Assembly (NCBI RefSeq): GCF_006937785.1
Contig: NZ_SJEE01000045.1
Span: 1-36,240, forward strand
Length of the DNA: 36,240 bases
DNA from: Pseudanabaena sp. UWO311
Lineage (GTDB): Bacteria; Cyanobacteriota; Cyanobacteriia; Pseudanabaenales; Pseudanabaenaceae
Reading direction: 5' to 3'
The notes beneath the pieces were generated by a model. It did no database searches and was not told the DNA's origin. It saw only the letters and a program-made list of their open reading frames with translations. The position numbers and the translations under genes were made by a program. Position 1 is the stretch's first letter. Every line of letters starts with the position of its first letter. This document shows positions 13,408 to 32,547 of the stretch, piece after piece.

Positions 13408-13421
13408 AGGTTAAATCAGCT

Positions 13422-18886: not shown

Positions 18887-20272
18887 ATGAAAGCAAGCCA
18901 TTATTGGCAATTTGTGAAATTAAAGGCGACAGGGCAATGCATCCGCGAAACGATCGCAAATGCTAGAGAGTTTTTCTTGCAGCAATTTTCGGCAACAGAT
19001 GATCTTGATGCTGTTCCTGAATTGACAGATTTACAAATTCAAAAACAACTATGGCAATTGCGGCAAAATGGCGAAGCGATCGCAGAAATTTGCTTGCGAT
19101 GCTTTATTTCTAATCAAATCGAACAAACCTGTTATCAGATCGCTAATCAGTTTGGGACTGTGCATGGATTCCGATATCACGATCTGTTGATTTTTGTACT
19201 GAATGATTATATTGAACGCCATCAAAATCAGAGCAAATTCATTTCAGAAGCCTGTGAAATTCTAGACAGCTTTGAGCCAGAGCGCAGTAACTTAGCAACT
19301 TGGACAAGTCGTAAGGTTAAGCAAAATCGTGAGTTAAATGCTTTTTTATTGGAGCATGGCGTTTATCTCGTCAGCGATTGGGCAATACTCAATGACACTA
19401 GTCCTAAGCAATTGGAACGCATTTATGCAGGGTTTTATCAAACTGCTCAATATTCCATTCAACAGACAAAAAATCTATTGGAAGCCTATCATGCGGTTTA
19501 TCGGATGGATCGATTGCAATCAAGATTAAATGGAAGCAAAGGTCAATGCCCTGTCCCCTCGTCAGAACAGTTACAAAAGATTTACGAATATCTAGTAGCA
19601 AATCATGCTGAAAATCATGTTGTACCTACAGCGCCAACAAATATTCTGGATAAATTGCAAGAGATGGCGAGCAGATTACGTCAATATCGCATACAGGCTA
19701 GGGGTGGTAAATCCCGACAAATATCCCTCGATCAACCGAATTTAGCAATTAATCCTGAGGCTTTATTAGCTAATTCTGAAAATGAGAATGAAGCATTTTC
19801 TTTCCTAGCGGCCTATCGCCAGCAGTTTGAGCACTGCTTAGAGAAAGCGATCGCAAAAGTAACTGACATTCGTCATACAAAACTCAAACAGAGATCGCCT
19901 GTGCAAGCTGCAAACTTTCTAATTGGTTTGAGCTTATTTCACTGTCGTGGTCAAACTATGGCTGAGATTGCATCTGAGATAGGGTTAGAGGCTCAATATC
20001 AAGTAACGCGGCTTCTTAAGCTCAAGGAATTGCGATCGGATATTCGCCGTGAAATTTTAGGCGATTTGCGTGAAGAAGTAATCGGACTAGTCAAGTTCTA
20101 TGCTGAGCCTTCTTTGTTATCGGAACTTGATCAAAAACTTGATGTTATTTTACAAGAATTAGTAGAGGAAGAAATGGAATGCGCCGAAGCCGAAAGTATC
20201 AAAAGCAAAGGAATTCCTCTACAAAGTCGCTTTGCTGTAAGGCTTTGTAAGTATTTGCAGCAACTCAGATAA
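18887..20272 (+). CDS. sigma-70-like protein of a DUF1822/CHAT gene set
   Basis: The 461-residue soluble protein has a central segment FEPERSNLATWTSRKVKQNR (about 130-149) resembling the sigma region 2 helix pattern. A second HTH-like region near residues 345-395 (GQTMAEIASEIGLEAQYQVT) resembles region 4. It is much larger than an ordinary ECF sigma factor, and the similarity is weak, so real sigma activity is uncertain. The same order (sigma-like, DUF1822, CHAT) recurs at 26218-32547, which supports the assignment. It is followed by a 250-base gap with an inverted repeat and then DUF1822. Confidence 0.6.
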   Translation: MKASHYWQFVKLKATGQCIRETIANAREFFLQQFSATDDLDAVPELTDLQIQKQLWQLRQNGEAIAEICLRCFISNQIEQTCYQIANQFGTVHGFRYHDLLIFVLNDYIERHQNQSKFISEACEILDSFEPERSNLATWTSRKVKQNRELNAFLLEHGVYLVSDWAILNDTSPKQLERIYAGFYQTAQYSIQQTKNLLEAYHAVYRMDRLQSRLNGSKGQCPVPSSEQLQKIYEYLVANHAENHVVPTAPTNILDKLQEMASRLRQYRIQARGGKSRQISLDQPNLAINPEALLANSENENEAFSFLAAYRQQFEHCLEKAIAKVTDIRHTKLKQRSPVQAANFLIGLSLFHCRGQTMAEIASEIGLEAQYQVTRLLKLKELRSDIRREILGDLREEVIGLVKFYAEPSLLSELDQKLDVILQELVEEEMECAEAESIKSKGIPLQSRFAVRLCKYLQQLR

Positions 20273-20297
20273 TGAATTTCCTGCTACTAGCGTGGCA

Positions 20298-20370
20298 GGG
20301 CAACCACGGGGGGATTGCCCCTACCTGAAATAATTCATGTTTTGTAGGGGCTGTGCCCCCGTGCCAGCCC
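20298..20370. repeat. inverted G/C-rich repeat pair
   Basis: A 27-base G/C-run-rich segment (20298-20324) faces a diverged inverted copy (20344-20370) across 19 bases. The core is GGGGGGATTGCCCCTAC against GTAGGGGCTGTGCCCCC. Such elements recur in cyanobacterial intergenic regions. It follows the sigma-like gene and could end its transcript. The rest of 20273-20525 is unremarkable. Confidence 0.65.
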
Positions 20371-20525
20371 CAGACTTCCGCCATTGCAGGAATTTCTTCA
20401 ACGTAATATCAGAAAGATAACATTGCATAACTCTCAACAAACTAGCGCTATGAATAGACAACAAATTAGAATAGGTAAGTACCATAATGATGGCATTAAA
20501 TTTACTCAATACTGGGGGAAAGACA

Positions 20526-21662
20526 ATGCTTAGTGACTTTGAAACGCTCCCTATTGAATCGATCGCTTTGTCGCCCGAAATTATTCATCAAGCGATCGCC
20601 TTTTCACAAAATGCTAGTAACCAATGGCAGACATATCTAGATGCGATCGCCTATTTGACGATATGCGAATGGCTACATGAGCGCTCACCTAGTCTTGCTT
20701 CGGTAAAGCATTCTGGAGACAGCACTAATTGCCAAGCAAATATTCATTATCTCAAGGTGAACGGCTTTACGCTTTATGTCCGAGGAAAAACGCCAGCTTC
20801 AGATGATTTGGTGGAAATACCTGCCGATATTTTGCAGCCGCAAATCCCTACGAGTGAAAACAATCAAGCTTCAAGTAATACTTTTATCGTCATTGTCGAA
20901 ATTTACGAAGAGATTGAAGAGGCGTTAATTTTAGGATTTAGTAGTCATCTACAATTAGTCAAACATCTTGCGGATCTAAAACGCGATCGCCTTGAGAATA
21001 CCTACCAAGTGCCGCTATCCCTATTTGATGACCAATCAGAGCGCTTGTTACTTTATCTCCAACATTTGGAACCCGTATTAGAAACCATAAATGCGTCTCA
21101 CCCAGAAGCGATCGCAGAATCGTCTCAAGTGAATATGACTGAGTTAATTCTCAATACTGGACTATGGTTGCAATCACAACTAGATGAAATCGCCCAAACC
21201 TTAGCTTGGCAACTATTGCCAACTTGGCAGCCCAATTATGCATCAGCACTACGCTCTCCTGCTACAGAAATGCAAACAATTATCAGTGAAGTAGCGCGGC
21301 TAACGGCTGATATTCCTGCCCATGCAAAAGCCGCCTATCATGACTTTCAACTTGGCGATCGCCATTTGCGTCTATATGCGACGGTGTGGGCAAATGGCGA
21401 TCGCACAGAAAATCCTGAGTGGTCATTATTACTTGTACTTGGTTCTCAATCCAGCAACGAGATTCCCTATGGTGTGAGAATGCGAATTCGCGATCAGCAG
21501 CAAGTTTTAGTAGATCGCAGACTAGAGCCAAATACTAGTGACCTATATCTTTATGCTTGCGTCACAGGCGAACAAAATGAAGTGTTTACAGTGTCGATTT
21601 CTTTGCCCAGTGGTGTTATGTTAACCTTACCAGCTTTTGCATTTTATCCCAATGCACTCTAA
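20526..21662 (+). CDS. DUF1822-family protein
   Basis: The 378-residue soluble protein follows the DUF1822 pattern: an N-terminal helix region with SNQWQTYLDAIAYLTICEWL, a middle domain with NCQANIHYLKVNGFTLYVRG and VEIPADILQPQ, then a 'GFSSHLQL' strand, and a C-terminal beta-rich domain (LRLYATVWANGD onward). The function is unknown; the family is largely cyanobacterial and often sits beside sigma-like and CHAT/CHASE2 genes. I chose ATG 20526 because GGGGGAAAG lies just upstream; an ATG at 20487 would add 13 residues. The stop TAA abuts the ATG of the next gene, so the two are translationally coupled. Confidence 0.85.
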   Translation: MLSDFETLPIESIALSPEIIHQAIAFSQNASNQWQTYLDAIAYLTICEWLHERSPSLASVKHSGDSTNCQANIHYLKVNGFTLYVRGKTPASDDLVEIPADILQPQIPTSENNQASSNTFIVIVEIYEEIEEALILGFSSHLQLVKHLADLKRDRLENTYQVPLSLFDDQSERLLLYLQHLEPVLETINASHPEAIAESSQVNMTELILNTGLWLQSQLDEIAQTLAWQLLPTWQPNYASALRSPATEMQTIISEVARLTADIPAHAKAAYHDFQLGDRHLRLYATVWANGDRTENPEWSLLLVLGSQSSNEIPYGVRMRIRDQQQVLVDRRLEPNTSDLYLYACVTGEQNEVFTVSISLPSGVMLTLPAFAFYPNAL

Positions 21663-24119
21663 ATGCCGACTTATTATCTAGAAGTTGAGAAAATCGAAGC
21701 ACAAAGTCGATTTATGTGCCGATTCCTGTTGTCTTGGGGAAAGAACCAACGCTTACCTGTAGTTGCGATCGCCTACTCAGAAAGCCTTGCTACTAGCTAT
21801 AGTGAATGGCAGTCAGCCTATCTCAACTATTACCGCAATGTTGCATTAGGGGAATCCTTACGCGGTCGAGTTCAAGGCAGTGGCAGTTTTTCGCCTTCAA
21901 CTGTGGATTGGTATGAGAAACTACGAGAATCCGAAGAAAGACTACTCAGAGAATTTAACTTTTGGTTGCGCAGTCCAGAGCTTTATGAACTTTGGGAAGA
22001 AATCAAGCGATCGGCACGGCTGATATCCACTCAATTAGCCAAATCCACATCAGCTCATATTGATTTACTGATCACTTGCTCCGAAGAGTTGAGCTGCTTA
22101 CCTTGGGAAGTATGGAAATTGCAAGATGAATTTGCCTCGCTCGATACGGTACGCATCGCCAGAACCGTCTACTCCAATATCGAGTTGTCCATTCCTCAAT
22201 ATCATCGCCGTCCGAGATTATTAGCAATTTTTGGGGATGAAACAGGCTTAGACTTTCAGCACGATCGCGTTGCCATGCAGATTTTATCGGGATTAGCGGA
22301 AATCCATACGATTTGCTGGGAGGCTAACACAGTAGATAGAATCAATCAAAAACAAAAAATTTGTGAGGCGATCGCCGATGAACAGGGGTGGGACATTCTC
22401 TTTTTTACGGGACATAGCGATCAAACGGATTTTACGGTAGGAAAATTGCTGATCGCACCCAATAGCTCTTTGACTATGAGCGATATTGAGCCTTATCTAC
22501 AGCAAGCTAAAAAGCGAGGTTTACAGATCGCAATTTTCAACTCTTGCAATGGTACTGCGATCGCCTCATGGTCAATCAGCAAAGTGGGAATCCCGCAAGC
22601 GATCGCCATGCGTGAACCAATCCACAATCAAGCCGCTCAGAGCTTTTTGGTACAGTTCCTTAAAAATCTTGCCCAATATCAAGATGTGCATACATCCATG
22701 CTGGGTGCTTGCCGTTATTTACAAGAATCGAGATTATTATTGCCCTCTGTTTACTTGATTCCTTCTCTATTTCGTCATCCTGATGCACAGCTATTTCAGC
22801 TATTGCCAACAGGTTGGAAGTCAATCTTGAGAAGAATTGCCCCAAATCCTTTGCAAGCGATCGCGCTCAGTAGTTTGCTAGCAATTAGCTGTATTCCCTC
22901 TCTGCAAGAATGGATGCTCGATAGTCGTGTTTGGCTGCAAGCCATCTATCGTCAGCAAACCCAGCGTATTCCCCAAGCACCGCCACCCGTTCTTTTAGTG
23001 CAAATCGATGAGGCTTCTTTACAGAAAGCTGCGATCGCCGATCCGTCCCCGATGGATCGGCAATATTTAGCGAAGTTAGTCGATCGCTTAGCTAGCCAAA
23101 AAGCTCAAATCATCGGCATTGATTATTTACTCGATCGCTCCCATCGCAATCTCAAAGATGGCAAAGATAATGGTCAAAGCGATCGCCTTTTAGGTCAGTC
23201 GCTCCAAAATGGTATAAATCAAAAAGATGGAGCTTGGTTTGTCTTAGCTTCCGTTTATAGTGAAGGCAATTGGCTAGAGACATTGCCTGAAATTGCCAGC
23301 AAAAATGGCACAGTGGATGGACATATTCATATGTCGGTACAGTATTTGCCGTTAGTTCAAACCGATGTGCCCAAATTGCCCTTTGCTTATTTACTAGCTG
23401 GATTGCATCGAGTCAGACAAACGCAAAATTTGCGATCGCCTTTAACTCCAGATGCTAGCCTCTTCACCCAAGTCTCTGACAGATTAAGTCTATATGGGAA
23501 GACATTTCGTAATCTGCTGTCACCCACTGCACAAATGCAACCAGTTACTAATTTTGCTCAAGATGAGATCGCTCAGTCGTGGCTACATCCCATTGTTGAT
23601 TTTTCGATTCCCCCCGATCGCATTTATCAGACAATTCCTGCATGGCAATTATTACAGGACAACCCACAAATTCTTGATTTGCAAAACAGTTCTCAAATCG
23701 TAATCATTTCCGCCAACTATTCCGAAGCAGGTGTATTTAAGCAAGGCGAAGATTCCTTCGTGCAACCTGCCGCGATTCGCTATTGGCTACAGCAATCAGC
23801 GCAAACCAAACAACGTGAGACCTATACAGGCGGAGAAGTGCAAGCCTATGCAGTTCATCATTTCTTGCGCGATCGCTATGTTGTGCCAATCCCTGACTCA
23901 TGGATGATACTTTTGTCTCTCTTTAGTGGTGCGATTCTGGTGGGATTTTGGCAACCGCGATCGCGCCGACAGGTATATATTTTGCTCAGTATGAGCTTTA
24001 GTATATATACATTAGCGAGTATCGAGATTTATATTTCTGGGGGGATTCTCTTGCCCATCGTCTTCCCTGCGATCGTTGCGATCGTTTACTGCGCGCCTAA
24101 ATTCATGAAACCTTCATAA
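21663..24119 (+). CDS. CHAT-CHASE2 membrane protein
   Basis: In this 818-residue protein, the N-terminal region (about 1-120) is shared with the CHAT protein at 30727 (compare FNFWLRSPEL with LNQWLRSPSF). Residues 130-380 form a CHAT caspase-like domain with His251 in LFFTGHS and Cys295 in IFNSCNG, the expected dyad. A membrane segment (about 395-411) leads to a CHASE2-type extracytoplasmic sensor domain (about 415-740, with VLLVQIDEASL and IIGIDYLLDR). Hydrophobic segments lie near 760-815. The layout suggests outside sensing controlling an inside protease, the reverse order of most CHASE2 receptors. Its start directly abuts DUF1822. Confidence 0.88.
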   Translation: MPTYYLEVEKIEAQSRFMCRFLLSWGKNQRLPVVAIAYSESLATSYSEWQSAYLNYYRNVALGESLRGRVQGSGSFSPSTVDWYEKLRESEERLLREFNFWLRSPELYELWEEIKRSARLISTQLAKSTSAHIDLLITCSEELSCLPWEVWKLQDEFASLDTVRIARTVYSNIELSIPQYHRRPRLLAIFGDETGLDFQHDRVAMQILSGLAEIHTICWEANTVDRINQKQKICEAIADEQGWDILFFTGHSDQTDFTVGKLLIAPNSSLTMSDIEPYLQQAKKRGLQIAIFNSCNGTAIASWSISKVGIPQAIAMREPIHNQAAQSFLVQFLKNLAQYQDVHTSMLGACRYLQESRLLLPSVYLIPSLFRHPDAQLFQLLPTGWKSILRRIAPNPLQAIALSSLLAISCIPSLQEWMLDSRVWLQAIYRQQTQRIPQAPPPVLLVQIDEASLQKAAIADPSPMDRQYLAKLVDRLASQKAQIIGIDYLLDRSHRNLKDGKDNGQSDRLLGQSLQNGINQKDGAWFVLASVYSEGNWLETLPEIASKNGTVDGHIHMSVQYLPLVQTDVPKLPFAYLLAGLHRVRQTQNLRSPLTPDASLFTQVSDRLSLYGKTFRNLLSPTAQMQPVTNFAQDEIAQSWLHPIVDFSIPPDRIYQTIPAWQLLQDNPQILDLQNSSQIVIISANYSEAGVFKQGEDSFVQPAAIRYWLQQSAQTKQRETYTGGEVQAYAVHHFLRDRYVVPIPDSWMILLSLFSGAILVGFWQPRSRRQVYILLSMSFSIYTLASIEIYISGGILLPIVFPAIVAIVYCAPKFMKPS

Positions 24120-24130
24120 TCTATCCCAAT

Positions 24131-24187
24131 CAAAAACAAACCCTGTAAGGGTTTTAAAAGCACAAAATGGCTACGCCATTTTATGCT
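24131..24187. repeat. dispersed hairpin element, copy 1
   Basis: Two hairpins, AAACCCT-GTA-AGGGTTT (24138-24154) and AGCA-N-AAAATGGC-TAC-GCCATTTT-N-TGCT (24159-24187), stand in the same order and spacing as in a second copy at 30425-30479. Here the element lies between convergent genes (CHAT-CHASE2 and psb28) and could act as a terminator. Confidence 0.8.
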
Positions 24188-24195
24188 GTGGAGAA

Positions 24196-24603
24196 TTACG
24201 ACTCCTTAAGAATAGTCTTGGTCAAATCTACAGGTTCTTGAGCTGCCGCGAATTCCATGCCATTTGCCTCAGCATAGCGCTGCATAAATCGCATAAAGCG
24301 ATCCCAATGTTCATCTGAGCCTACATTAAACACGATTTCAATTTTTGCCAATTCTTCATCATCGCCTTTATCTTTCCAAAACAACTTGGAACTTTTCGGC
24401 TCAATTGAAATCGTGCCTTCACTATCAACTAGACGAATATCATTAAATGATGCCTTAGCAAAACTATTTACCCCTTGCACAGCCTTAATATTTACAAAAG
24501 TCATTTTAACTGAATTCTCGCCTGTTGAACGATCTCGCCTCAACCGTACATCACTCAATTCTTCGGGAATCCCTGCAAAAAATTCTATGGATGGAGATGT
24601 CAT
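24196..24603 (-). CDS. psb28: photosystem II assembly factor Psb28-type
   Basis: The 135-residue soluble protein follows the Psb28 pattern: SIEFFAGIPEELSDVRLRRD, then MTFVNIKA, the strand FNDIRLVDSEGTISIEPKSS and the C-terminal HWDRFMRFMQRYAEANGMEF helix. Psb28 binds the cytoplasmic side of CP47 during photosystem II assembly and repair. Cyanobacteria often have two versions; this divergent one may be Psb28-2. I chose ATG 24603 (MTSPSIEFF); an upstream in-frame start at 24639 would add 12 residues without family support. It is divergent from pfkA and convergent with the CHAT-CHASE2 gene. Confidence 0.85.
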   Translation of the reverse strand: MTSPSIEFFAGIPEELSDVRLRRDRSTGENSVKMTFVNIKAVQGVNSFAKASFNDIRLVDSEGTISIEPKSSKLFWKDKGDDEELAKIEIVFNVGSDEHWDRFMRFMQRYAEANGMEFAAAQEPVDLTKTILKES

Positions 24604-24866
24604 GATAATCACTTTGTGGTTAAAGTAGATGCATTTCATACTATGTATATTCCATTCTCTAATTTCTGGCTAAATAACAACAAGAAAAACATAAAACTTA
24701 AATACTCTAGAGGTGTGTATGAACTTGTGTTGCAAGATCTGAGAGGTTTTCTTAAGTTTTGTCGTAACTGAGGATTTGACGCTCTAAAAGCGAGAAAATA
24801 GGATGCGATCGATTGTTCATTTGTTCATCCTGAATTGATGAGATTATCCATAAATGGAAAGATGAA

Positions 24867-26048
24867 ATGGTAAGCAACCACAAGCCAAAACGTATTGGCA
24901 TTTTAACTAGTGGAGGAGATTGTCCTGGGCTTAATGCTGTCATTCGAGCAGTTGTGAAAGTGGCTACATATAAGTACGGATGGGAAGTCTATGGTATCCC
25001 CTATGGAACCGATGGCTTTATCGAGCTATTAGTTGGGAAACGACAACCTGAAGATTTACGCATTAAGGAACACGGTTATGATATTCCTGGTTTGGTACAG
25101 GGGCTAGATATCCTTTACTTTCTTAGTGGTAGTGTTTTGGGTTCGATTAGTAAAGGCGATCCCGAACGCCATGCCGACGATATTATCAAAGGCTATGAGA
25201 AATTAGGTTTGACCGCATTGATTGTTATGGGTGGAGATGGAAGTATTGAAATTTTAGACGGATTAGCGCAAAAAGCTGCTGATCAAGGTGCACTGTGGAA
25301 TTGGGTCGCCATCCCCAAAACCATTGACAATGATATTCCATTTACTGAAGCCTCAGTGGGCTTCGATACAGCTGTGAATCGGGTGACTCAAGCTCTTTAT
25401 GATCTTACCTTTACCGCCGCTAGCCATGATCGCGTGATGATCGTCCAAGTGATGGGGCGAGATTCGGGCTATCTGGCGATGGAAGCAGGGCTTGCTGGTG
25501 GCGCAGATGCGATCTTAATCCCCGAATTGACTCCTGTTTTAAATGAGGAGGTAATCATGGGAATCTGTCGTCATATTGGACAATTACAGCAGAATGGTAG
25601 AAGGTTTGCACTTGTAGTAATTGCTGAGGGCGTAAAAAATTATCTTGGTCAAAAGGAACATTACATAGGAGACTATCTCGCTCGTCAAGTCCAAGAGTGT
25701 AGTAACAAGCTTTGCGATATTGATTCTCACATCTATCCCTTTGACACTCGCGTTACGGTGTTGGGACATGTCCAGAGAGGAGGTACGCCTACTTACACCG
25801 ATCGCCTTTTGGCAACTGCTTTTGGTCGGGAGGCGGTAGATTTAATTGCTAATGGTAATTATAACCAGATGGTGATCTGGGAAAATGGTAGGGTTAGCAG
25901 TGTTCCTATCAGTCGAGTGATTGAGCAGATTAAAAAGGGTCGCAGAGAGAAGAAAGCACCTTCGCGGGTTGATCCTCAAGGCTTTTTAGTAAGAACGGCG
26001 CGAGATATTGGTATTTATGTGGGAGAAGTAAGTAGTGACGATCAGTAG
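24867..26048 (+). CDS. pfkA: 6-phosphofructokinase
   Basis: It phosphorylates fructose 6-phosphate to fructose 1,6-bisphosphate in glycolysis. The 393-residue protein has SGGDCPGLNAVIR (15-27), the nucleotide-site GGDGS (122-126), the catalytic PKTIDND (150-156, Asp154 and Asp156) and VMGRDSGYLA. Gly in GGDGS is the pattern of nucleotide-using enzymes, whereas Lys in PKTIDND is the pattern of pyrophosphate-using ones; mixed signatures are known in the longer PFK clade. Donor preference (ATP, ADP or PPi) cannot be settled here. GGAAAGA precedes ATG 24867. A long hairpin follows the stop. Confidence 0.93.
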   Translation: MVSNHKPKRIGILTSGGDCPGLNAVIRAVVKVATYKYGWEVYGIPYGTDGFIELLVGKRQPEDLRIKEHGYDIPGLVQGLDILYFLSGSVLGSISKGDPERHADDIIKGYEKLGLTALIVMGGDGSIEILDGLAQKAADQGALWNWVAIPKTIDNDIPFTEASVGFDTAVNRVTQALYDLTFTAASHDRVMIVQVMGRDSGYLAMEAGLAGGADAILIPELTPVLNEEVIMGICRHIGQLQQNGRRFALVVIAEGVKNYLGQKEHYIGDYLARQVQECSNKLCDIDSHIYPFDTRVTVLGHVQRGGTPTYTDRLLATAFGREAVDLIANGNYNQMVIWENGRVSSVPISRVIEQIKKGRREKKAPSRVDPQGFLVRTARDIGIYVGEVSSDDQ

Positions 26049-26071
26049 TTCCAGCAATTACCGATCAAATG

Positions 26072-26130
26072 AACCAAAGAAAATTTTTGAAAGTGTTGCT
26101 TTGCAACACTTTCAAAAATTTTCTTTGGTT
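26072..26130 (+). terminator. 28-bp perfect hairpin after pfkA
   Basis: The arms 26072-26099 and 26103-26130 pair perfectly around a TTT loop, 23 bases after the pfkA stop. A T-rich GGTTTGGTTTT follows. It is a strong terminator candidate and also a member of the local TTT-loop hairpin group. Confidence 0.8.
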
Positions 26131-26217
26131 TGGTTTTGAGCGCAAAGCGTTGTAAAGTGAGAGTCATTGCGATCGCTGTGACTAAGTTAAAATAACTATT
26201 ATTAATAGACTTCTAAA

Positions 26218-26868
26218 ATGATCGATTTAGAGCAACAACTAGCAGAGCTTGTTATAGAAACTTGTCAGCATCCACAAGGAACTATTGCTCGACAGTACGG
26301 ACTAACTTCATTAATTCGGTTAATTAATCAATCGCAAAAACTTTGGAAAGATAATTCTCCCTACTATGAAGATGCTTTACAGCTAACATGGCTATATTTC
26401 TGTCGAAATCTTTGTGAGGCGACTACTGCAAAATCTGCCTACGATTCCGATCGCAGTAATGTTATTACTTGGATGAATGCCTACCTTAAATATCGATTGC
26501 AAGATATGTATATCGAAAACCATCAACAGCAACTAAAATCTGGATTAGCGGAAAGAGATAATATCGATGACGCTGGTATAGATCAGGTAATAGATCGCAT
26601 AGCTGCACCTGTACAATCCTCTGATTTATTGGAGCAAATCCGACAATGGGCGAAATTAGATAGGACAAAAATTTTGCGTCGTACTTATATTCGCGATCGC
26701 GCTGATGTTAATGCTCAGGTTCTAATTCTCAAACGATTACCTCCTGAGACTAATTGGCAAATTCTATCGCAAGAGTTTTCGCTACCCATCTCGACTCTCA
26801 GTAGCTTTTATCAACGCAAGTGTATTCCACTATTAAAAGAATTTTATGAAAAAAGCAGGGTTGCCTAG
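26218..26868 (+). CDS. small sigma-70-like protein of the second DUF1822/CHAT set
   Basis: The 216-residue soluble protein has YEDALQLTWLYFCRNLCEAT and then YDSDRSNVITWMNAYLKYRL (about 74-93), a pattern like sigma region 2. The C-terminal HTH NWQILSQEFSLPISTLSSFY (about 178-197) resembles region 4. Its size is near that of ECF sigma factors. It matches the 18887 protein at the R-S-N-x-x-T-W block. No anti-sigma gene is adjacent; DUF1822 follows after 98 bases. It has no clear Shine-Dalgarno. Sigma-like is well supported by pattern; promoter recognition is inferred. Confidence 0.72.
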   Translation: MIDLEQQLAELVIETCQHPQGTIARQYGLTSLIRLINQSQKLWKDNSPYYEDALQLTWLYFCRNLCEATTAKSAYDSDRSNVITWMNAYLKYRLQDMYIENHQQQLKSGLAERDNIDDAGIDQVIDRIAAPVQSSDLLEQIRQWAKLDRTKILRRTYIRDRADVNAQVLILKRLPPETNWQILSQEFSLPISTLSSFYQRKCIPLLKEFYEKSRVA

Positions 26869-26966
26869 CACAGCAAGCCACCAACAATTCGTGAAAGTAC
26901 TTCGTACCAATATCTTTAAGAATTGTATTGCATACCTTAGTTATGCAAAGCGCTATATGATCAATT

Positions 26967-27932
26967 ATGTTTAATATTAAAGACAGTTTTTTATCACTAC
27001 CAATTGTCAACGAGCATCGTGACATTGCTCGTTCTTTTGCTGCGAAACAATCTTTTTTAGATATTGCAGAGCGAGTGGAGCGTAATACTCTTGCGGTGCT
27101 GGTGATGCGTGACTACCTAGAGATGATGGGGATCTCAACGAGCTTAGAGTCAAGTGATAGTTGGAACCCTGTTGTGCAGATATGTGCAAATGTTGCTGAT
27201 CTAGATATTGAGGGGGTGGGTAAGGTGGAATGCCGATCGCTGAATGAGGGAGAGTCAACATGTTATGTGCCTCCTGAAGTATGGGGAGATCGTATTGGTT
27301 ATACATTTGTTCAACTAGATGCGAATTTGCGAGCGGCAACAATTTTGGGCTTTATGCCACAGGTGGAGATGGAATCAGTAGCGATCGATCTTCTCGAACC
27401 AATTGAACGTTTGTGTGTAGCGATCGCAGGTTTACGCGCATCTACTCCACAAGTTTCTGGTAATTCAAATGCGATCGCGAATCTTAGCAATTGGTTGCAG
27501 AATCTTTTTGAGTCAGGTTGGCTAGAGCTAGAAACTTTACTGGACGGTAATCAACCTCAATATGCTTGGCGTAATCGAGAATTTTTAAGTTCTATTGCTA
27601 ACGAATCTAATCTGACAGAAGTACGACGAGGTAAGTTGATAGATCTTGGCTTGCTGATGTCTGGGTGTTTAGTCGCGCTAGTTATCACAATTTCGCAAAT
27701 TTCGCAAAGTGAGACTAGTATTCGTCTAGCTATTTATCCAATGACGGATACATTTCTGCCTGAATTCCTTAAATTAGCGGTTTTAGATGATGTCGGGAAT
27801 ATTTTTCTACAGGTTCAAGCGCGAAGTATCGATAATTATATTCAGCTTCAATTGAGTGGCAATACAGGAGAAAATTTTAGTGTTCAAGTCTCTCTTACGG
27901 AAGTATTGCTGACAGAAAATTTTGTTGTTTGA
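26967..27932 (+). CDS. DUF1822-family protein, second copy
   Basis: The 321-residue soluble protein has the DUF1822 organisation seen at 20526: an N-terminal helix with NTLAVLVMRDYLEMMGI, then VGKVECRSLNEGESTCYVPP, FVQLDANLRAATILGF and a C-terminal beta-rich region (about 215-318). It is shorter than the first copy by about 55 residues, mainly in the last domain. Function unknown. Its position between a sigma-like gene and a protease/CHAT cluster repeats the first gene set, so the three probably act together. A structured repeat separates it from the next gene. Confidence 0.8.
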   Translation: MFNIKDSFLSLPIVNEHRDIARSFAAKQSFLDIAERVERNTLAVLVMRDYLEMMGISTSLESSDSWNPVVQICANVADLDIEGVGKVECRSLNEGESTCYVPPEVWGDRIGYTFVQLDANLRAATILGFMPQVEMESVAIDLLEPIERLCVAIAGLRASTPQVSGNSNAIANLSNWLQNLFESGWLELETLLDGNQPQYAWRNREFLSSIANESNLTEVRRGKLIDLGLLMSGCLVALVITISQISQSETSIRLAIYPMTDTFLPEFLKLAVLDDVGNIFLQVQARSIDNYIQLQLSGNTGENFSVQVSLTEVLLTENFVV

Positions 27933-27941
27933 ATCAAATAC

Positions 27942-28052
27942 GCCAAGAACTCAAGTTCTTGGCTAAAAGCTCAAGTCGGTTGAAACCGACTAAAGAAATT
28001 TGAAATTTAACCCGTTTCAACGGGTTTGAGCTTTTATACCGCACTTTAGTGC
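27942..28052. repeat. multi-stem intergenic repeat
   Basis: Stems seen: GCCAAGAACT with AGTTCTTGGC (27942-27963); an outer stem AAAAGCTCAA (27965-27974) with TTGAGCTTTT (28026-28035) enclosing AGTCGGT/ACCGACT (27974-27991) and AACCCGTT/AACGGGTT (28009-28026); then GCACT/AGTGC (28041-28052). The enclosed pair forms a multi-branched structure when transcribed. It could end or attenuate the sigma/DUF1822 transcript. Confidence 0.75.
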
Positions 28053-28135
28053 AGGGTTGATTTTGCATAGCTTGCGATCGCCTAGAACTAAATCAGTCTA
28101 GAAAGATACAGGCAAGTTATAGAAGCTTAAGTCGT

Positions 28136-28447
28136 ATGGAAGTCTCGGCTATATTTTTAATTTCTTTTGGATTAGTGACGTTGATTATGTTGCTTACACT
28201 ATCGCGTCCTCGTCAACTTCGATGGGGTAAAAAGTTAGGATTATGGTTGTCAAATCTGCGGAAATGGTGGCAAGATTTACAGGAAGGTATTGAATGTGCG
28301 CCCTTGGAGCAAAGGCTTAATGAATTGGTAAAGAGACGATGGGATGTTGCCGAGCGTTTGCTAAAAGCACAAAAGCTTAGAAATCCTAATCAAAAGAGAA
28401 AATGGTATTTAGAAAAAGTTATTTACGATCTTAAACGCGGACGGTGA
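28136..28447 (+). CDS. small single-pass membrane protein
   Basis: The 103-residue protein has one N-terminal membrane segment (about residues 4-22, IFLISFGLVTLIMLLTL) followed by a strongly basic, Trp/Lys/Arg-rich helical tail. The positive charge right after the segment (RPRQLRWGKK) predicts a cytosolic C-terminus. No family recognised. It ends 6 bases before the M48 protease gene and is almost certainly in the same operon. It may be an accessory subunit or anchor of that protease; this is inference from spacing. Confidence 0.7.
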   Translation: MEVSAIFLISFGLVTLIMLLTLSRPRQLRWGKKLGLWLSNLRKWWQDLQEGIECAPLEQRLNELVKRRWDVAERLLKAQKLRNPNQKRKWYLEKVIYDLKRGR

Positions 28448-28453
28448 GAATCT

Positions 28454-30376
28454 ATGACTCAAGAGAAATTTGATGAATTGGTTCAGCAATTGGAAGTATA
28501 CTCGCAGCAACATCCTAATCTGTATAAATTGCGTGTAGCTGCGTTAGCTACATTTGGATATGTATATATTTTTGTGGCGATCGCCTTTTTATTATGGTGT
28601 GCAGTTCTAATCGCTTTCATTGCCATTTACGGTCGCTTTTTCGCTAGTGGACTGTTTGCAATTTTAATAGTGTCAATATTTTTGCTATTGCGATCGCTGT
28701 GGGTCACATTTCCTGATCCAACTGGCAATAGACTAAAGCGCAAGCAAGTTCCCGAACTTTTTGCATTGGTAAAACGTTTAACCAAATCCTTACAAGCGCC
28801 ACAATTTCATCAAATCATCTTAACCTCAGAGTTCAATGCATCGGTAGTTCAAGTTCCTCGTTTGGGCATCTTTGGTTGGCAGAAGAACTATCTCATTCTT
28901 GGTTTACCATTAATGCAAGCCCTCTCTCCTGAACAATTTCAAGCCGTATTAGCTCATGAAATCGGGCATCTATCTGGCAATCATAGTCGCTTTGCTGGAT
29001 GGATTTATCGAGTACGCAAAACATGGATGCAAATTTTAGAACGTTTCCAAACCGAGCAAGGCGCTGAAGTTGTGGCGATGAGTTTCTATGGATTTATCAA
29101 TTGGTATTCACCGCTATTAAGTGCGTATTCATTCGTGTTAGCAAGGGCTAACGAGTACGAAGCCGATCGTTGTGCGGCTGACTCTGTGGGTAATCAACAT
29201 ACTGCCGAAGCATTGATTTTAGTTGGTGTGAGAAGTCAATATATTGACAATTCCTATTGGAAAAATATTTATCTTCAAGTTAATACTCAACCAGAACCGC
29301 CAAATTATCCCTTTGCCCAACTAGCTCAAGCCTTACAAGATGAAATAGCGCCTGAGACTTATCACAAATTATTAGCGCGATCGCTAACCCTCAAAACCGA
29401 TACTAGCGATACACACCCTTGTTTGCGCGATCGCTTGCAAGCTCTAGGTTTTAATCCATCAGCACTACCAATGATGAATTTTAGTCCTGTAACGGCTAGC
29501 CAAAAATTTCTGGGTAGTGCTCTTGCTAATTTGACCGAACAATTTGATCGGGAGTGGTATAGAAATGTTGAGGCTTCATGGAAAGAGCGATTTACATATA
29601 TCCAAGGGCTTCGTACCGCGCTGCAAGCCATTGAAGAAAAGGCTAAATCAGAAATATTAAATCTCACTGAAGCATGGAATCGCGCTTTCTGGACAAGTGA
29701 AATTATGGGTGATCGTATGGCTCTTCCTTTTGCTCAAAATGTAGTTGCGATGCAAGCCGATCATGCTGGAGCCAATTATCTATTGGGTAAAGTTTTGATT
29801 GAAGATGAAGACCCCAAAGGGATTGAGCATTTGGAAATTGCGATGCAAGGTGATGTAGATGCGGTTATACCGAGTTGCGAACTAATTTATGGATTTCTCA
29901 AACAAAATGGTAAAAATGATGAAGCATTGGAATACGAGCAAAAGCTAGCAATTCACTATCAAAAAGTTGGTTTGGCACAACAAGAAAGGGCTTCGGTAAG
30001 TTGCTTTGATGCTCTCATCACTCACGATCTGCCTGAAGAGGAGGTTAAAAGATTACATCATTATTTGTCGGGATACAAAGATATCGAAACTGTCTATCTC
30101 GTTCGCAAGCACTTAAAGCATTTCCCTGAAAAGCCCATGTTTGTTTTAGCAATTAAATGTAAGCATTCTTTCTGGACTAAGTTTCATTTGAGTGCCAGAG
30201 CACTAGAAAAAGAGAAAAAAGTGATCGCCAAAATTGCTAATGAATTTCAGTTTGTGTCCCATACATACGTGACTGTGTTTGCTTCTGACAGTAGTTTCCG
30301 AAAAAATGATTTTCCTTATGTCATATCAGAAGATTACATCAAGAAAGTTGCGGGTAGGTCAATTTACCAAGCCTAA
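28454..30376 (+). CDS. M48-family zinc metalloprotease with a C-terminal repeat region
   Basis: In this 640-residue protein, two membrane segments lie at about 32-60 and 64-84. The peptidase domain carries LAHEIGHLSG (HExxH 168-172; zinc ligands His168 and His172, catalytic Glu169). RANEYEADRCA near 235 supplies the third ligand Glu, as in HtpX/Ste24-like M48 enzymes. Residues beyond about 420 look like TPR-type helices (GANYLLGKVLIEDED onward). The last 90 residues are unassigned. The family degrades or trims membrane and envelope proteins. It is co-transcribed with the small membrane protein 6 bases upstream. The active site looks complete. Confidence 0.88.
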   Translation: MTQEKFDELVQQLEVYSQQHPNLYKLRVAALATFGYVYIFVAIAFLLWCAVLIAFIAIYGRFFASGLFAILIVSIFLLLRSLWVTFPDPTGNRLKRKQVPELFALVKRLTKSLQAPQFHQIILTSEFNASVVQVPRLGIFGWQKNYLILGLPLMQALSPEQFQAVLAHEIGHLSGNHSRFAGWIYRVRKTWMQILERFQTEQGAEVVAMSFYGFINWYSPLLSAYSFVLARANEYEADRCAADSVGNQHTAEALILVGVRSQYIDNSYWKNIYLQVNTQPEPPNYPFAQLAQALQDEIAPETYHKLLARSLTLKTDTSDTHPCLRDRLQALGFNPSALPMMNFSPVTASQKFLGSALANLTEQFDREWYRNVEASWKERFTYIQGLRTALQAIEEKAKSEILNLTEAWNRAFWTSEIMGDRMALPFAQNVVAMQADHAGANYLLGKVLIEDEDPKGIEHLEIAMQGDVDAVIPSCELIYGFLKQNGKNDEALEYEQKLAIHYQKVGLAQQERASVSCFDALITHDLPEEEVKRLHHYLSGYKDIETVYLVRKHLKHFPEKPMFVLAIKCKHSFWTKFHLSARALEKEKKVIAKIANEFQFVSHTYVTVFASDSSFRKNDFPYVISEDYIKKVAGRSIYQA

Positions 30377-30386
30377 GTTTTATACC

Positions 30387-30479
30387 AATTCACAAAAGTG
30401 TGATCACACTTTTGTGAATTAAAAAACAAACCCAGTAAGGATTTTAAAAACACAAAATGGCTAAGCCATTTTGTGTTTT
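30387..30479. repeat. palindrome plus dispersed hairpin element, copy 2
   Basis: A 34-bp loopless palindrome (30387-30420, centred on TGATCA) is followed by the second copy of the element seen at 24131. It contains ACAAACCC-AGTAAGGATTTTAA and the hairpin AAAACACAAAATGGC-TAA-GCCATTTTGTGTTTT (30447-30479). It follows the M48 gene and can end its transcript. The remaining bases to 30662 hold no recognised gene, only presumed promoter sequence. Confidence 0.8.
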
Positions 30480-30662
30480 GGTATTATTTGACCTTGTGGA
30501 GCTATGTGTGGCAAAAAAGTTTAAGTTTTGTAAATCAATGCGTAAGTTCTTTGCTTGAGCCAGATAGGTAAGTAAATAGTTGGATTTTTGCTGCATAGAT
30601 CAGCGATCGCTAGAGCTATGTGAGACTAAACAACTATTTTTATCTTTTACCAAGGTGAATTA

Positions 30663-30701
30663 ATGACAAACCTAAATAAAATGTGCATGATGAGTCTGTA
30701 G
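30663..30701 (+). CDS. possible 12-codon leader peptide before the CHAT gene
   Basis: ATG 30663 has an excellent ribosome site (AAGGTGA, 4 bases upstream) but encodes only MTNLNKMCMMSL before TAG at 30699-30701. It lies 25 bases before the CHAT start, whose own ribosome site is weak (GGAG about 12 bases upstream). It could be a regulatory upstream frame or the debris of a longer gene. Confidence 0.3.
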   Translation: MTNLNKMCMMSL

Positions 30702-30726
30702 ATGTTTTGATGGAGCGATCGCCATT

Positions 30727-32547
30727 ATGGGGAAGCTAGTAACCCTAAAATTTAGTGATGGTAATTTCGAGCAAGGATTTGTCGTCACTATTCAAATTGG
30801 CGAAGAAGGAGCGCTCCCGTCCTCGGAGATTGCGGCAAACTTGCCCCCATCAATGGAGTTACCTAAGCTCTATGATGCATGGCAGTCTTTGTACTTGAAG
30901 ATAGGTTCAACAACTCGGCTCTCAGCCGATGCGAATGCTGTTACTAATGTCTCCTTTCTCGAAGATTGTTATGATGCTGCTGAGAAGCTATCAGAGCAGC
31001 TCAATCAATGGCTGCGATCGCCATCTTTTCTCCCTGCTAGGGAGCTAGTCTCCGACAACATCTACAGAACCGATGAAGTGCGCGTACTACTGCAATCGGG
31101 AAATCCTTATTTACAGAAAATGCCTTGGCACTTGTGGGATTTATTCGATCGGCGCTTTACCAAGGCAGAAATTGCGATCGCTGCTCCTAGCTATTCCAGT
31201 ATCGAACCTTCACAAAAACACTCTGACAAGATTCGCATTCTCGTAATTCTCGGCAATAGTGAAGGTATCGATATCGGTGCCGATCGCACCATGCTAGAGC
31301 AATTACCAAATGCAGAGGTGACTCTGTTAGTAGAACCGAGGCGGCAGCAACTGAACGATCAGTTATGGCAGCAGCAATGGGATATTCTCTTTTTTGCGGG
31401 GCATAGCTCCACTCAAGAGGATATCGGTCGGATCTACATCAACGAGACGGAAAGTCTGCGGATGGAGCAGTTGCGTTATGCGCTGAGGACGGCTGTTAGT
31501 AACGGCTTGCGATTAGCGATTTTTAACTCTTGCGATGGTTTGGGCTTAGCGCGATCGCTATTCGACTTGCATATTCCTCAAGTGATCGTGATGCGCGAAC
31601 CGATTCCCGATGAAGTAGCCCAAAAGTTTTTGCGTTATTTTCTCGAAGATTTCTCAAGCGGAACTTCTTGCTATTTGTCAGTACGGAGAGCGAGAGAGCG
31701 CCTGCAAGGTATCGAAGATCGCTTCCCCTGTGCAACTTGGTTGCCCATCATTTGCCAAAACCCCGCAGAAACCCCTTTAACATGGTCGTACCCCAAGCAG
31801 GAGAAAGTGACAATGACTATACCAGTACCAGTATTAACAAAAACATCAAGCCCAGTATTAACGCCAATGATAGACATATCATCGCCAAAGCCGCCTAGTC
31901 GGAATAATAAAAGGACAAAGCTATTCCAATTGCCTCAAACTTATTTGCTTTTGGCAGGAACGGCTCTGGGCTTAGCTTGTTTTGTGACGGTGCTGCGTCC
32001 GCGTCCGATTGTGATTGCAAGTGGTGGTGCGATCGCGGCAATCATTTTTGGTGCGTGGTCGTGGCAAATCAAGAAAGAATTCGCTTGGTTGAATGAGAAT
32101 AATTTGCTCGATCGCTATGTATTTGCGTCAAAACTCGATGCATTGGAACGCAAATCTCTATCTACTGGAATGCAGTGGCGGAGAGCAAAGGCATGGGCGA
32201 GGGAGATTCATGCTTATGCCGAAAAAATAGTTGAGAAGGAGCCAGACCTGACGGTGGATATCTTAGAAACTCTGATCACTGTTTTGGAATTGGCTGGTCA
32301 GGTAGCGGATGCGATCGCTACTATCGGTCAGGTGAAGTCTGAGAACTATCGTGTGGTGGCGCAACGACGGCTACAAGCGAGTTACGATCGCCTCCAAGCT
32401 ACGCATGAACTTTTACAAAATTTACAAGATCAAGTTCTGTTGCTTTCGCTAGATCGAAATAGTTCCAATCTCAAAATGGAGCTACCTGCTCAGTTGAGAC
32501 TTGCGATCGATACGAACAAAATCACTTTGCAAGCAAACGAAAACTAG
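30727..32547 (+). CDS. CHAT-domain membrane protein
   Basis: In this 606-residue protein, the N-terminal region (about 1-120) matches that of the CHAT-CHASE2 protein. The CHAT domain (about 120-350) holds His226 in LFFAGHS and Cys269 in IFNSCDG, the caspase-type dyad. A Pro/Ser linker leads to two close membrane segments (about 405-423 and 430-447). The C-terminal 150 residues are helical and likely coiled. It lacks the CHASE2 sensor, so input may come from other subunits, perhaps the adjacent VWA/solute-binding lipoprotein. It ends 34 bases before that gene. Confidence 0.87.
   Translation: MGKLVTLKFSDGNFEQGFVVTIQIGEEGALPSSEIAANLPPSMELPKLYDAWQSLYLKIGSTTRLSADANAVTNVSFLEDCYDAAEKLSEQLNQWLRSPSFLPARELVSDNIYRTDEVRVLLQSGNPYLQKMPWHLWDLFDRRFTKAEIAIAAPSYSSIEPSQKHSDKIRILVILGNSEGIDIGADRTMLEQLPNAEVTLLVEPRRQQLNDQLWQQQWDILFFAGHSSTQEDIGRIYINETESLRMEQLRYALRTAVSNGLRLAIFNSCDGLGLARSLFDLHIPQVIVMREPIPDEVAQKFLRYFLEDFSSGTSCYLSVRRARERLQGIEDRFPCATWLPIICQNPAETPLTWSYPKQEKVTMTIPVPVLTKTSSPVLTPMIDISSPKPPSRNNKRTKLFQLPQTYLLLAGTALGLACFVTVLRPRPIVIASGGAIAAIIFGAWSWQIKKEFAWLNENNLLDRYVFASKLDALERKSLSTGMQWRRAKAWAREIHAYAEKIVEKEPDLTVDILETLITVLELAGQVADAIATIGQVKSENYRVVAQRRLQASYDRLQATHELLQNLQDQVLLLSLDRNSSNLKMELPAQLRLAIDTNKITLQANEN

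Follow-up and report, generated by a model that had tools for sequence, protein, structure and literature searches.

The order of a sigma-like gene, a DUF1822 gene and a gene for a CHAT (caspase-like) membrane protein is found twice in a 36,240-nucleotide stretch of the Pseudanabaena sp. UWO311 genome (contig NZ_SJEE01000045.1; hereafter, the window), and this locus raises the question of whether the three families constitute a functional unit and what such a unit may do. The first-pass annotation of this DNA had described the repeated order, the fusion of the set A CHAT protein to CHASE2, and the two membrane segments and extra partners of the set B CHAT protein, all of which were borne out by the open reading frames, the Pfam assignments and TM prediction (Table 1), the last placing the two segments at residues 405–423 and 428–446. 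The closest named relatives of sets A (18887–24119) and B (26218–32547) are those of Pseudanabaena. Both sigma types are present in only 2 of 101 loci examined, the window and L062, and the adjoining of an A set to a B set is a local trait. The extra partners in set B, the M48 peptidase and the small transmembrane (TM) protein, were rejected as core components because the M48 gene was found by HMM in only 2 of the 101 loci, and genes on the opposite strand occupy the corresponding place in the Pseudanabaena SR411 locus.

Table 1. Genes of sets A and B in the window
Feature	Position	Strand	Evidence
Set A sigma-like protein, 461 aa, sigA-type family	18887..20272	+	HMM chain via L098, TIGR02937, PDB SigA
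Set A DUF1822 protein, 391 aa, proposed anti-sigma factor	20487..21662	+	PF08852 E 1.3e-24
Set A CHAT (caspase-like) protease, TM, CHASE2, C-terminal TM part	21663..24119	+	CHAT 5e-7, CHASE2 3e-21; dyad H251/C295
Set B predicted ECF-like sigma factor, 216 aa, sigB-type	26218..26868	+	AF2 model, fold comparison, hmmsearch
Set B DUF1822 protein, 321 aa, proposed anti-sigma factor	26967..27932	+	PF08852 E 2.4e-62; AF2 model
Set B extra, small protein, single N-terminal TM	28136..28447	+	ORF list, TM prediction
Set B extra, not core, M48 membrane metallopeptidase	28454..30376	+	PF01435 E 1.7e-15
Set B CHAT protease, two TM segments, dyad H226/C269	30727..32547	+	PF12770 E 1.7e-16

Gene pairing and the CHAT proteases

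In 30 whole genomes (picked from genomes with DUF1822 hits, mostly in few contigs, and not random), a sigA- or sigB-type gene is located within 1.5 kb of 85 of the 109 DUF1822 loci, against 0.42 expected; this count leaves out A1 hits with E values above 1e-30, most of which are general sigma factors, and 3 of the 48 sigB rows (two fragments and one at E 4e-4). The association of the gene sets is far above chance, contrary to the outcome that the first-pass annotation had named as evidence against a functional unit. DUF1822 is the next gene downstream of 50 of the 52 sigA-type hits among the matches listed, and of 34 of the 45 sigB-type hits, in these genomes. Likewise, in the 101 loci, which were mostly picked from best-scoring hits and not at random, 94 of the 108 DUF1822 ORFs have a sigA- or sigB-type gene within 1 kb, and for 86 of the 108 the sigma gene is upstream on the same strand at this distance, with a median gap of 27 bp (93 pairs). 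A sigma2–DUF1822 fusion (L159/L250) was set aside and not counted as proof of partnership because its CHAT neighbour is truncated. Among the DUF1822 ORFs of named loci, 60 of 86 have no sigma gene within 1 kb upstream; Nostocales account for 57 of these 60, and 14 of the 57 have a sigma gene elsewhere in the stretch.

The pairing is reflected in the DUF1822 tree (alignment of 104 of the 106 ORFs longer than 250 aa, leaving out L157:18117 and L149, the latter truncated by the end of its contig). Over its 86 cyanobacterial rows, the type of the partner sigma changes once (27.7 times when shuffled), whereas the presence of CHAT changes 15 times (28.6 when shuffled); the corresponding changes over all 93 rows are 2 and 16. 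CHAT was scored as present when encoded within 3 kb downstream and longer than 500 aa, and some of the absences, such as that of L062 set B, are not real losses because of this rule. When ORFs shorter than 250 aa and seven small-genome pairs were dropped, the distance correlation between sigA-type and DUF1822 proteins was 0.87, compared with 0.58 when partners were exchanged inside each genome (a value this high arose in 0 of 2000 swaps), and that between sigB-type and DUF1822 proteins was 0.72, compared with 0.63 (16 of 2000 as high). For the sigma–DUF1822–CHAT triples, with 3 informative genomes per family, no pair rose above the swaps (each at least 229 of 2000 as high). Linkage by itself can cause neighbouring genes to be inherited together.

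The CHAT gene is the more variable member. No CHAT gene lies within 2.5 kb of 50 of the 109 DUF1822 loci, and 27 of the 85 CHAT loci are without DUF1822 at this distance (A9 rows of the HetF-like/HetF kind and weaker were dropped); set B of the window is counted here as being without CHAT because two genes intervene. Moreover, 32 of the 57 sigA-paired DUF1822 ORFs have no CHAT gene in the stretch, 7 of the 32 being from the small-genome relatives described below. The idea of a functional unit, put forward in the first-pass annotation, is supported but does not apply equally to all three families: the evidence supports a core consisting of the sigma–DUF1822 pair, the steadier unit, with a CHAT protein that comes and goes.

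The alignment of CHAT-A with CHAT-B covers 352 columns at 31% identity (E 2e-36), and therefore their common part spans ~350 residues comprising the N-region and the CHAT domain, not only the 120 N-terminal residues proposed initially from a similarity that is itself confirmed. The His/Cys dyad, assigned in CHAT-B (H226/C269) by alignment to CHAT-A, is intact in both proteins, as already noticed at first pass, and is kept in 54 of 54 aligned CHAT relatives (H251/C295 in CHAT-A numbering; ORFs shorter than 550 aa left out). The C-termini are variable (n = 50), with CHASE2 in 31, Peripla_BP_6 in 7, nSTAND1 in 4, NACHT in 3, and WD40 in 2. Of the 27 CHAT matches in the genome of the window, the CHAT profile recovers only 2; its next matches after the family itself include HetF and a 528-aa HetF-like family, and it retrieves no PDB relative at E 0.01.

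Sigma-like and DUF1822 proteins

Neither the 18887 nor the 26218 protein matches a Pfam sigma family, and the former, searched by itself, has no sigma match in NCBIfam either. The connection of the 18887 protein to sigma factors is made by a chain of homologues, in which the HMM of its 6-member clade matches L098 (E 1.1e-11), itself above the sigma70-ECF cut-off (69.8 versus 42.9 bits). TIGR02937 is matched (E up to 0.1) by 49 of the 59 proteins of the sigA-type family, whose profile also matches cyanobacterial SigA in PDB (E 1e-24). The profile of the 18887 clade alone gives weak sigma matches with region-4 hints only, and the HMMs of 46 other family members or of seven small-genome sigmas do not find the 18887 protein, for which reason it was set aside as a secure sigma factor ('Sigma A') and is regarded as a more weakly supported, divergent sigma relative. 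Profile comparison of this clade with the small-genome sigmas gave a probability of 24.6 over the HTH only, and that of the sigB-type family gave 5.5.

The predicted structure of the 26218 protein (AF2; pLDDT, 77) resembles E. coli sigmaE (1or7_B; VIA Z, 9.6 over 156 residues; rmsd, 11.3, with a different relative arrangement of the two domains), and its region 2 is superposed well on that of sigmaE (4lup_A; Z, 9.0; rmsd, 2.1 over 86 residues). The best match of the model in Foldseek is also sigmaE (E 0.029, with none at E 0.001), and SigK and RpoE are the best matches of the family in hmmsearch (E 0.0035), supporting the assignment of the modelled protein as an ECF-like sigma factor. Iterated HMM searches with the sigA-type and sigB-type families yield no common matches, and comparison of the two profiles aligned 46 HTH columns (probability, 24.8); as far as tested, the 18887 and 26218 proteins appear to be related to each other through the HTH part only. 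Thus, the designation of both proteins as sigma-like stands for 26218 by fold comparison, and with weaker support for 18887; the fold searches did not give the result that had been stated in advance as damaging, namely no relation to sigma factors, for 26218, and the relation between the two proteins is confined to the HTH part. No autoregulated promoter, and no clear conserved one, was found upstream of the sigma genes in 4-row and 2-row alignments.

The DUF1822 family was matched in 240 of 386 genomes sampled across the phylum. Direct BLASTP between DUF-A and DUF-B gives no signal (E 0.22), and therefore their relation needs profiles: both match PF08852, and iterated HMM searches from either protein end in one set of 147 ORFs. 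The AF2 model of DUF1822-B (pLDDT, 80; pTM, 0.55) is composed of an α/β N-domain (~1–160), a low-confidence linker (~160–215), and a β-sandwich (~218–320). In comparison with PDB structures, the best rows are of Ig-like and other sandwich kinds (Z up to 7.0), and these comparisons bear little on the fold of the N-domain, as they span mainly residues 219–321; Foldseek gave no match at E 0.001. TPR families are absent among the best 25 of the 32 Pfam families listed for 104 scanned DUF1822 members, with HEAT_2 present in 7, and DUF1822-B is modelled as an α/β plus β-sandwich protein, not as TPR.

The relatives of DUF1822 in 40 small genomes (chosen for having a match; 2 of the loci truncated at contig ends, and a single DUF1822 gene frame-split) suggest the function of the family. 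In 31 of the 40, the DUF1822 N-domain heads a membrane protein encoded directly before a sigma gene with a gap of 67 bp or less; the adjacent sigma gene is missing in 6, and a strong TM segment is predicted in 33. A strict Hx3CxxC motif follows the N-domain in 13 of the 40, of which 8 have a sigma neighbour and 5 have none beside. The zinc anti-sigma domain zf-HC2, found in 4 of the 104 members by Pfam scan, is located right after the DUF1822 N-domain in L043 and L142 (28.8 and 28.1 bits, respectively, versus the Pfam cut-off of 22.2) and likewise in G016 of another lineage (25.5 bits). In addition to these 40 genomes, the seven relatives L142–L148 have a common plan consisting of the DUF1822 N-domain, the motif region (Hx3CxxC intact in 4, degenerate in 3), an acidic linker, a hydrophobic segment, and a conserved C-terminal part, and in 7 of 7 a sigma gene adjoins. 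The L142 sigma is above the sigma70-ECF cut-off (45.7 versus 42.9 bits), and the other two scanned small-genome sigma neighbours are below it (41.1 and 29.5 bits). Cyanobacterial DUF1822 and the zinc-motif relatives match in profile comparison (probability, 96.5; E 8.6e-10; 146 columns), which ties the DUF1822 N-domain to relatives, encoded next to sigma genes, with a membrane anchor and an anti-sigma zinc motif.

Membrane anti-sigma factors of the RseA/RsiW type have a zinc motif, a TM segment, a C-terminal end beyond it, and a sigma gene as neighbour. The DUF1822 relatives share these features and differ in carrying the extra N-terminal DUF1822 domain. In cyanobacteria, DUF1822 is soluble and has neither motif nor anchor, and it is the CHAT protein that has the membrane part. 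A remnant of the motif in cyanobacterial DUF1822 was discarded as a candidate, as 0 of 98 members have it even by a relaxed pattern; for this reason, sigma binding by the present-day proteins would rest on the homology of the N-domain. Anti-sigma domains without zinc exist. DUF1822 is probably an anti-sigma factor, as judged from these sequence relationships, and two marks of a sigma/anti-sigma pair, a sigma fold (in region 2 of the 26218 model) and adjacent same-strand genes, are found.

Proposed switch, precedents and alternative explanations

On balance, we favor as somewhat the more probable case that each set consists of a sigma/anti-sigma pair switched by a caspase-like protease of the membrane. 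The sigma and DUF1822 proteins would be made together from one gene pair, with DUF1822 binding to its own sigma factor and keeping it inactive. A signal, presumably sensed outside the membrane through CHASE2 in set A and at the membrane in set B, would activate the cytoplasmic CHAT protease, which may then cut DUF1822, perhaps in the flexible linker, and the freed sigma factor would turn on its target genes. A sensor–protease–transcription circuit, considered plausible in the first-pass annotation, is therefore the best reading by analogy with published precedents. In Type III-E CASP, Csx29 (TPR-CHAT) cuts Csx30, the inhibitor of CASP-sigma (PMC10028731, in which membrane anti-sigma factors of the RseA/RsiW type are also named); the proposed switch would have in common with it a CHAT protease, a sigma inhibitor as the substrate and an ECF-like sigma, and differs from that RNA-guided system in that a membrane or sensor part is built into the protease itself. 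The DUF1822 profile matched no Csx30 among PDB chains, although absence at the sequence level proves little. In Anabaena, HetF cuts PatU3, the inhibitor of HetZ (PMC12288457), which is similar to the cleavage of a transcription regulator's inhibitor by a cyanobacterial protease proposed here. The CHAT family of the window has HetF among its closest relatives; with the HetF model NF045509, CHAT-B scores 45.8 bits versus the cut-off of 1200, and CHAT-A has no match.

The gene set itself is not new to print, since an ECF sigma and DUF1822 are listed next to EACC2-caspase genes in PMC8195603. The window proteins resemble this description in having a constant N-region followed by a caspase-type domain with the dyad, a variable C-terminus such as CHASE2, and neighbouring sigma and DUF1822 genes; no match named EACC2 was obtained in Pfam/NCBIfam scans of the CHAT proteins. 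DUF1822 is called a TPR protein there, which agrees with neither the DUF1822-B model nor the Pfam scan. The retrieved part of that paper does not give DUF1822 the anti-sigma role that is proposed here, and our analysis differs from it also in treating the sigma–DUF1822 pair as the core, which has relatives in settings without CHAT.

According to an unlikely alternative, the locus is an EACC2 conflict system, in which CHAT, as the effector, would kill or arrest the cell in response to invasion or damage, the sigma factor would only amplify CHAT expression, and DUF1822 would serve as an adaptor. In the retrieved part of PMC8195603, EACC2-caspase systems are compared with the conflict systems of that paper, and activation by autopeptidase action together with a transcriptional step is proposed; moreover, the nSTAND1, NACHT, and WD40 domains found among the CHAT C-termini are consistent with such a role; however, CHASE2 and periplasmic-binding domains outnumber those of the STAND/NACHT type, and the sigma–DUF1822 pairs frequently without CHAT argue against it. 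The sign of the effect is not told by pairing and co-inheritance, and DUF1822 might instead be a positive cofactor or localisation adaptor of the sigma factor, so that cutting by CHAT would turn transcription off. The separate β-sandwich domain of the DUF1822-B model and the loss of the zinc motif in cyanobacteria would fit this explanation, which we rate slightly below the preceding one, since the relatives, linked to zf-HC2 and a membrane anchor and encoded next to sigma genes, show the classic plan of an inhibitor. A recent tandem duplication, or co-location by chance, is a very improbable explanation of the two sets: they lie within 14 kb in this genus (window and L062), but DUF-A and DUF-B share 20% identity and belong to separate deep clades of the tree, and the pairing count far exceeds the expected number. 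Recent duplication was rejected also because the two sigma-like families do not merge.

Extending the protease-gated sigma/anti-sigma switch to the whole family, about which we are slightly more doubtful than convinced, DUF1822 may be a large, mostly cyanobacterial anti-sigma family derived from zinc-type membrane anti-sigma factors, in which, in photosynthetic cyanobacteria, anchor and sensing were shifted to the CHAT protein, converting a one-piece into a two-piece caspase-gated switch, with several parallel copies per cell carrying different sensors. In the retrieved part of PMC9679502, DUF1822 is only a table entry, and no anti-sigma factor linked to a CHAT caspase in cyanobacteria was found in the open-licence PMC literature; new here is the anatomy of the locus, comprising the sigma–DUF1822 core, the anti-sigma proposal, the predicted sigma fold of 26218, and the modelled fold of DUF1822-B. 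A Pfam-domain survey of cyanobacterial sigma factors like that of PMC11119718, judging from its retrieved part, would probably not count the sigma-like proteins of the window because neither has a Pfam sigma match, and these two point to the likely existence of further sigma factors missed by Pfam in cyanobacteria. If the proposed switch is true, a function would be given to the large DUF1822 family, these caspase-like proteins would act in signal-gated transcription and not only in cell death, and a third circuit of CHAT protease, inhibitor, and transcription factor would stand beside Csx29–Csx30–CASP-sigma and HetF–PatU3–HetZ.

Gene sets and their association

The first-pass annotation had described a sigma-like, a DUF1822 and a CHAT gene as the same three families occurring twice. 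This held for DUF1822, as iterated HMMs of DUF1822-A and DUF1822-B converged on the same 147 ORFs, and for CHAT, whose two HMMs nearly converged (71 of 73 ORFs in common), but not for the sigma-like proteins (named 18887 and 26218 by start coordinate), whose families, sigA-type and sigB-type, remained separate. The architectures given for the two CHAT proteins and the extra partners in set B were confirmed. In the window, psb28 and a phosphofructokinase-like ORF part the two sets, unlike in Pseudanabaena sp. lw0831, where they abut, the sigma gene of set B starting 22 bp past CHAT-A; the same holds for another locus, L062. Among named relatives, lw0831 has the DUF1822 closest to that of set B (86% identity), and the genome carrying the window is 5.2 Mb in size. 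Near both sets in L062, a homologue of the Peptidase_C13-like ORF is also found; Peptidase_C13 is the legumain-type family, likewise related to caspases.

Features of the two gene sets and their surroundings
Feature	Position	Strand	Description	Basis
Methylase-like ORF	11647-14106		NPPY motif, DNA methylase-like; two small ORFs here resemble a toxin-antitoxin pair	by eye
Lipoprotein-like ORF	17574-18824		62 bp separate it from the 18887 gene	Peptidase_C13 similarity, E 7.6e-6
Set A sigma-like	18887-20272	+	461 aa	ORF
DUF1822-A	20487-21662	+	DUF1822	ORF, Pfam
CHAT-A	21663-24119	+	CHAT-TM-CHASE2-TM	ORF, Pfam, TM prediction
psb28	inside 24196-26048	opposite	between sets A and B	Pfam
6-Phosphofructokinase-like ORF	inside 24196-26048		between sets A and B	by eye
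Set B sigma-like	26218-26868		216 aa	
DUF1822-B	26967-27932		DUF1822	
Small protein	28136-28447		TM	
M48	28454-30376		peptidase	
CHAT-B	30727-32547		CHAT, two TM segments	
VWA ORF	32582-34366		directly after CHAT-B	VWA domain, weak solute-binding-protein match

Among 101 loci, a sigA- or sigB-type gene lies within 1 kb of 94 of the 108 DUF1822 ORFs, 86 upstream on the same strand. Because these loci were picked mainly among strong matches, 30 genomes were searched whole with the DUF1822, sigA-type and sigB-type profiles: a sigma gene was located within 1.5 kb at 85 of 109 DUF1822 loci (0.42 expected), and DUF1822 was next after 50/52 sigA-type and 34/45 sigB-type matches. With the CHAT profile, DUF1822 was found within 2.5 kb upstream at 58 of 85 loci (0.51 expected), and the suggested co-occurrence is thus above chance for both pairs. 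Unlike in these two surveys, a sigma gene was within 1 kb of only 26 of 86 DUF1822 ORFs in 80 named loci chosen by similarity to DUF1822-B, with CHAT within 2.5 kb downstream of 82 of the 86. Since 57 of the 60 ORFs without a close sigma gene belong to Nostocales (for 14 of these 57, the stretch holds a sigma gene at another place), the B-type DUF1822-CHAT pair is mostly separated from its sigma gene in that order. Five Nostocales loci viewed carry an ORF of 267-300 aa behind the CHAT gene; the one scanned, in locus L187 (13531-14334), encodes a DUF928 protein (222 bits), possibly a target or accessory of the circuit.

On the DUF1822 tree (a quick method, with several long branches), partner type switches once in 86 cyanobacterial rows against 27.7 when shuffled. 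CHAT presence, with 15 switches against 28.6, is clustered too, yet far less fixed; all 93 rows give 2 and 16 switches, respectively. The sigA-DUF1822 distance correlation is 0.87, compared with 0.58 when partners are swapped within genomes (0/2000 as high), and that of sigB-DUF1822 is 0.72 compared with 0.63 (16/2000). Among full triples, a smaller set with three informative genomes per family, no pair exceeds the swap control. Linkage by itself could explain part of the sigma-DUF1822 correlation; still, the two behave as a single inherited pair, to which the protease is an added part.

Sigma-like proteins

Although the 26218 protein has no sigma match in Pfam, and its family matches Sigma70_r4_2 in 5/38 and Sigma70_r2 in 4/38 members, its AF2 model (pLDDT 77) bears out the sigma-like assignment. 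All 50 VIA matches listed are sigma factors or sigma/initiation-complex chains. E. coli sigmaE scores best, at Z 9.6 with an rmsd of 11.3 over 156 residues, its two domains being arranged differently; region 2 alone gives Z 9.0 with rmsd 2.1 over 86 residues. The top Foldseek match is the same sigmaE in complex with RseA (E 0.029), with none at 0.001. Taken together, the family of 18887 is sigma-70 related by sequence: TIGR02937 matches 49 of its 59 members (E up to 0.1), and the family profile matches region 2 and regions 3-4 of cyanobacterial SigA (E 1e-24). For the 18887 protein itself, of a divergent clade, the assignment has weaker support, through its family and a chain in which the clade profile reaches a relative in locus L098 (E 1.1e-11) that exceeds the sigma cut-off (69.8 versus 42.9 bits), but not by the protein alone, which has weak region-4 similarity and is missed by HMMs of 46 other family members and of seven small-genome sigmas. 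It is probably a divergent sigma relative.

DUF1822 in cyanobacteria and other lineages

Many small genomes of the phylum (~1.5-2.5 Mb) outside the window's class, presumably Vampirovibrionia/Gastranaerophilales, have one DUF1822 match apiece. Seven such relatives (L142-L148) share the DUF1822 N-domain and a zinc motif position (Hx3CxxC in four, degenerate in three), with an acidic region and a hydrophobic segment beyond it. Their C-terminal part is conserved as well and resembles TonB_2 in the two proteins that were scanned individually. The motif following the N-domain matches zf-HC2 in L043 and L142 (28.8 and 28.1 bits; cut-off 22.2). In all seven, a sigA-type sigma gene follows immediately; that of L142 passes the sigma70-ECF cut-off of 42.9 bits (45.7), and two others scanned score 41.1 and 29.5. 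In 40 further genomes, selected for having a DUF1822 match, sigma is next downstream within 67 bp in 31, the strict Hx3CxxC is present in 13 and a strong TM in 33; the remaining nine comprise six orphans, two cut at contig ends and one whose reading frame is split, the sigma gene lying 2 kb further along. Eight strict-motif proteins have a sigma neighbour and five are orphans (L264, L271, L272, L275 and L282; 513-824 aa, strong TM, no recognisable sigma gene beside them); these are candidate orphan anti-sigma factors. Genome G016, of another lineage, has two DUF1822 genes with Hx3CxxC behind the N-domain, one matching zf-HC2 (25.5 bits) and the other preceded by 9 bp by a gene weakly matching sigma70-ECF (E 0.0032).

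The cyanobacterial N-domain is related to that of these proteins (profile comparison probability 96.5, E 8.6e-10), with the zinc motif found in 0/98 cyanobacterial members. DUF1822 was given as a TPR protein in a 2021 paper on EACC2-caspase systems (PMC8195603); the DUF1822-B model is not that of a TPR protein, but has an N-domain of alpha/beta type, joined by a linker of low confidence (~160-215) to a beta-sandwich at the C-terminus. In one 488-aa ORF (L159:8409-9875, identical to L250:2409-3875; minus strand), a segment of sigma region 2 (TIGR02937 E 7.6e-8) is fused with DUF1822; this locus may be decaying, because the adjoining CHAT gene is truncated.

CHAT proteases and the proposed circuit

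The window-type family is a separate CHAT branch, its profile picking up 2 of the 27 CHAT matches in this genome; among its next matches are a 528-aa HetF-like family (E ~1e-30) and HetF (E ~1e-17 to 1e-22). The His/Cys dyad noted earlier is invariant in 54/54 relatives. The C-termini (n = 50) are varied and sensor-like (CHASE2 31, Peripla_BP_6 7, nSTAND1 4, NACHT 3, WD40 2). CHASE2 is usually on the outer side of the membrane and the CHAT part is located ahead of the first TM; with CHASE2 so placed, the protease would face the cytoplasm, the compartment of sigma and DUF1822. The circuit probably works by a signal from outside that would activate CHAT, which would then cut DUF1822 and release sigma. 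Similar working is described for Csx29, which cuts Csx30, the binder and inhibitor of CASP-sigma (PMC10028731), and for HetF, which cuts PatU3, a restrainer of HetZ (PMC12288457).

The excerpted text of PMC8195603, which names ECF sigma and DUF1822 as neighbours, assigns DUF1822 no anti-sigma role, and no proposal of such a role was found among the open-licence papers searched on DUF1822, on anti-sigma factors with caspases and CHAT in cyanobacteria, on CHAT with CHASE2 and sigma, and on EACC2. Sigma/anti-sigma control as such is of a known kind; we propose its combination with a caspase-like membrane protease, and put forward a function for DUF1822.
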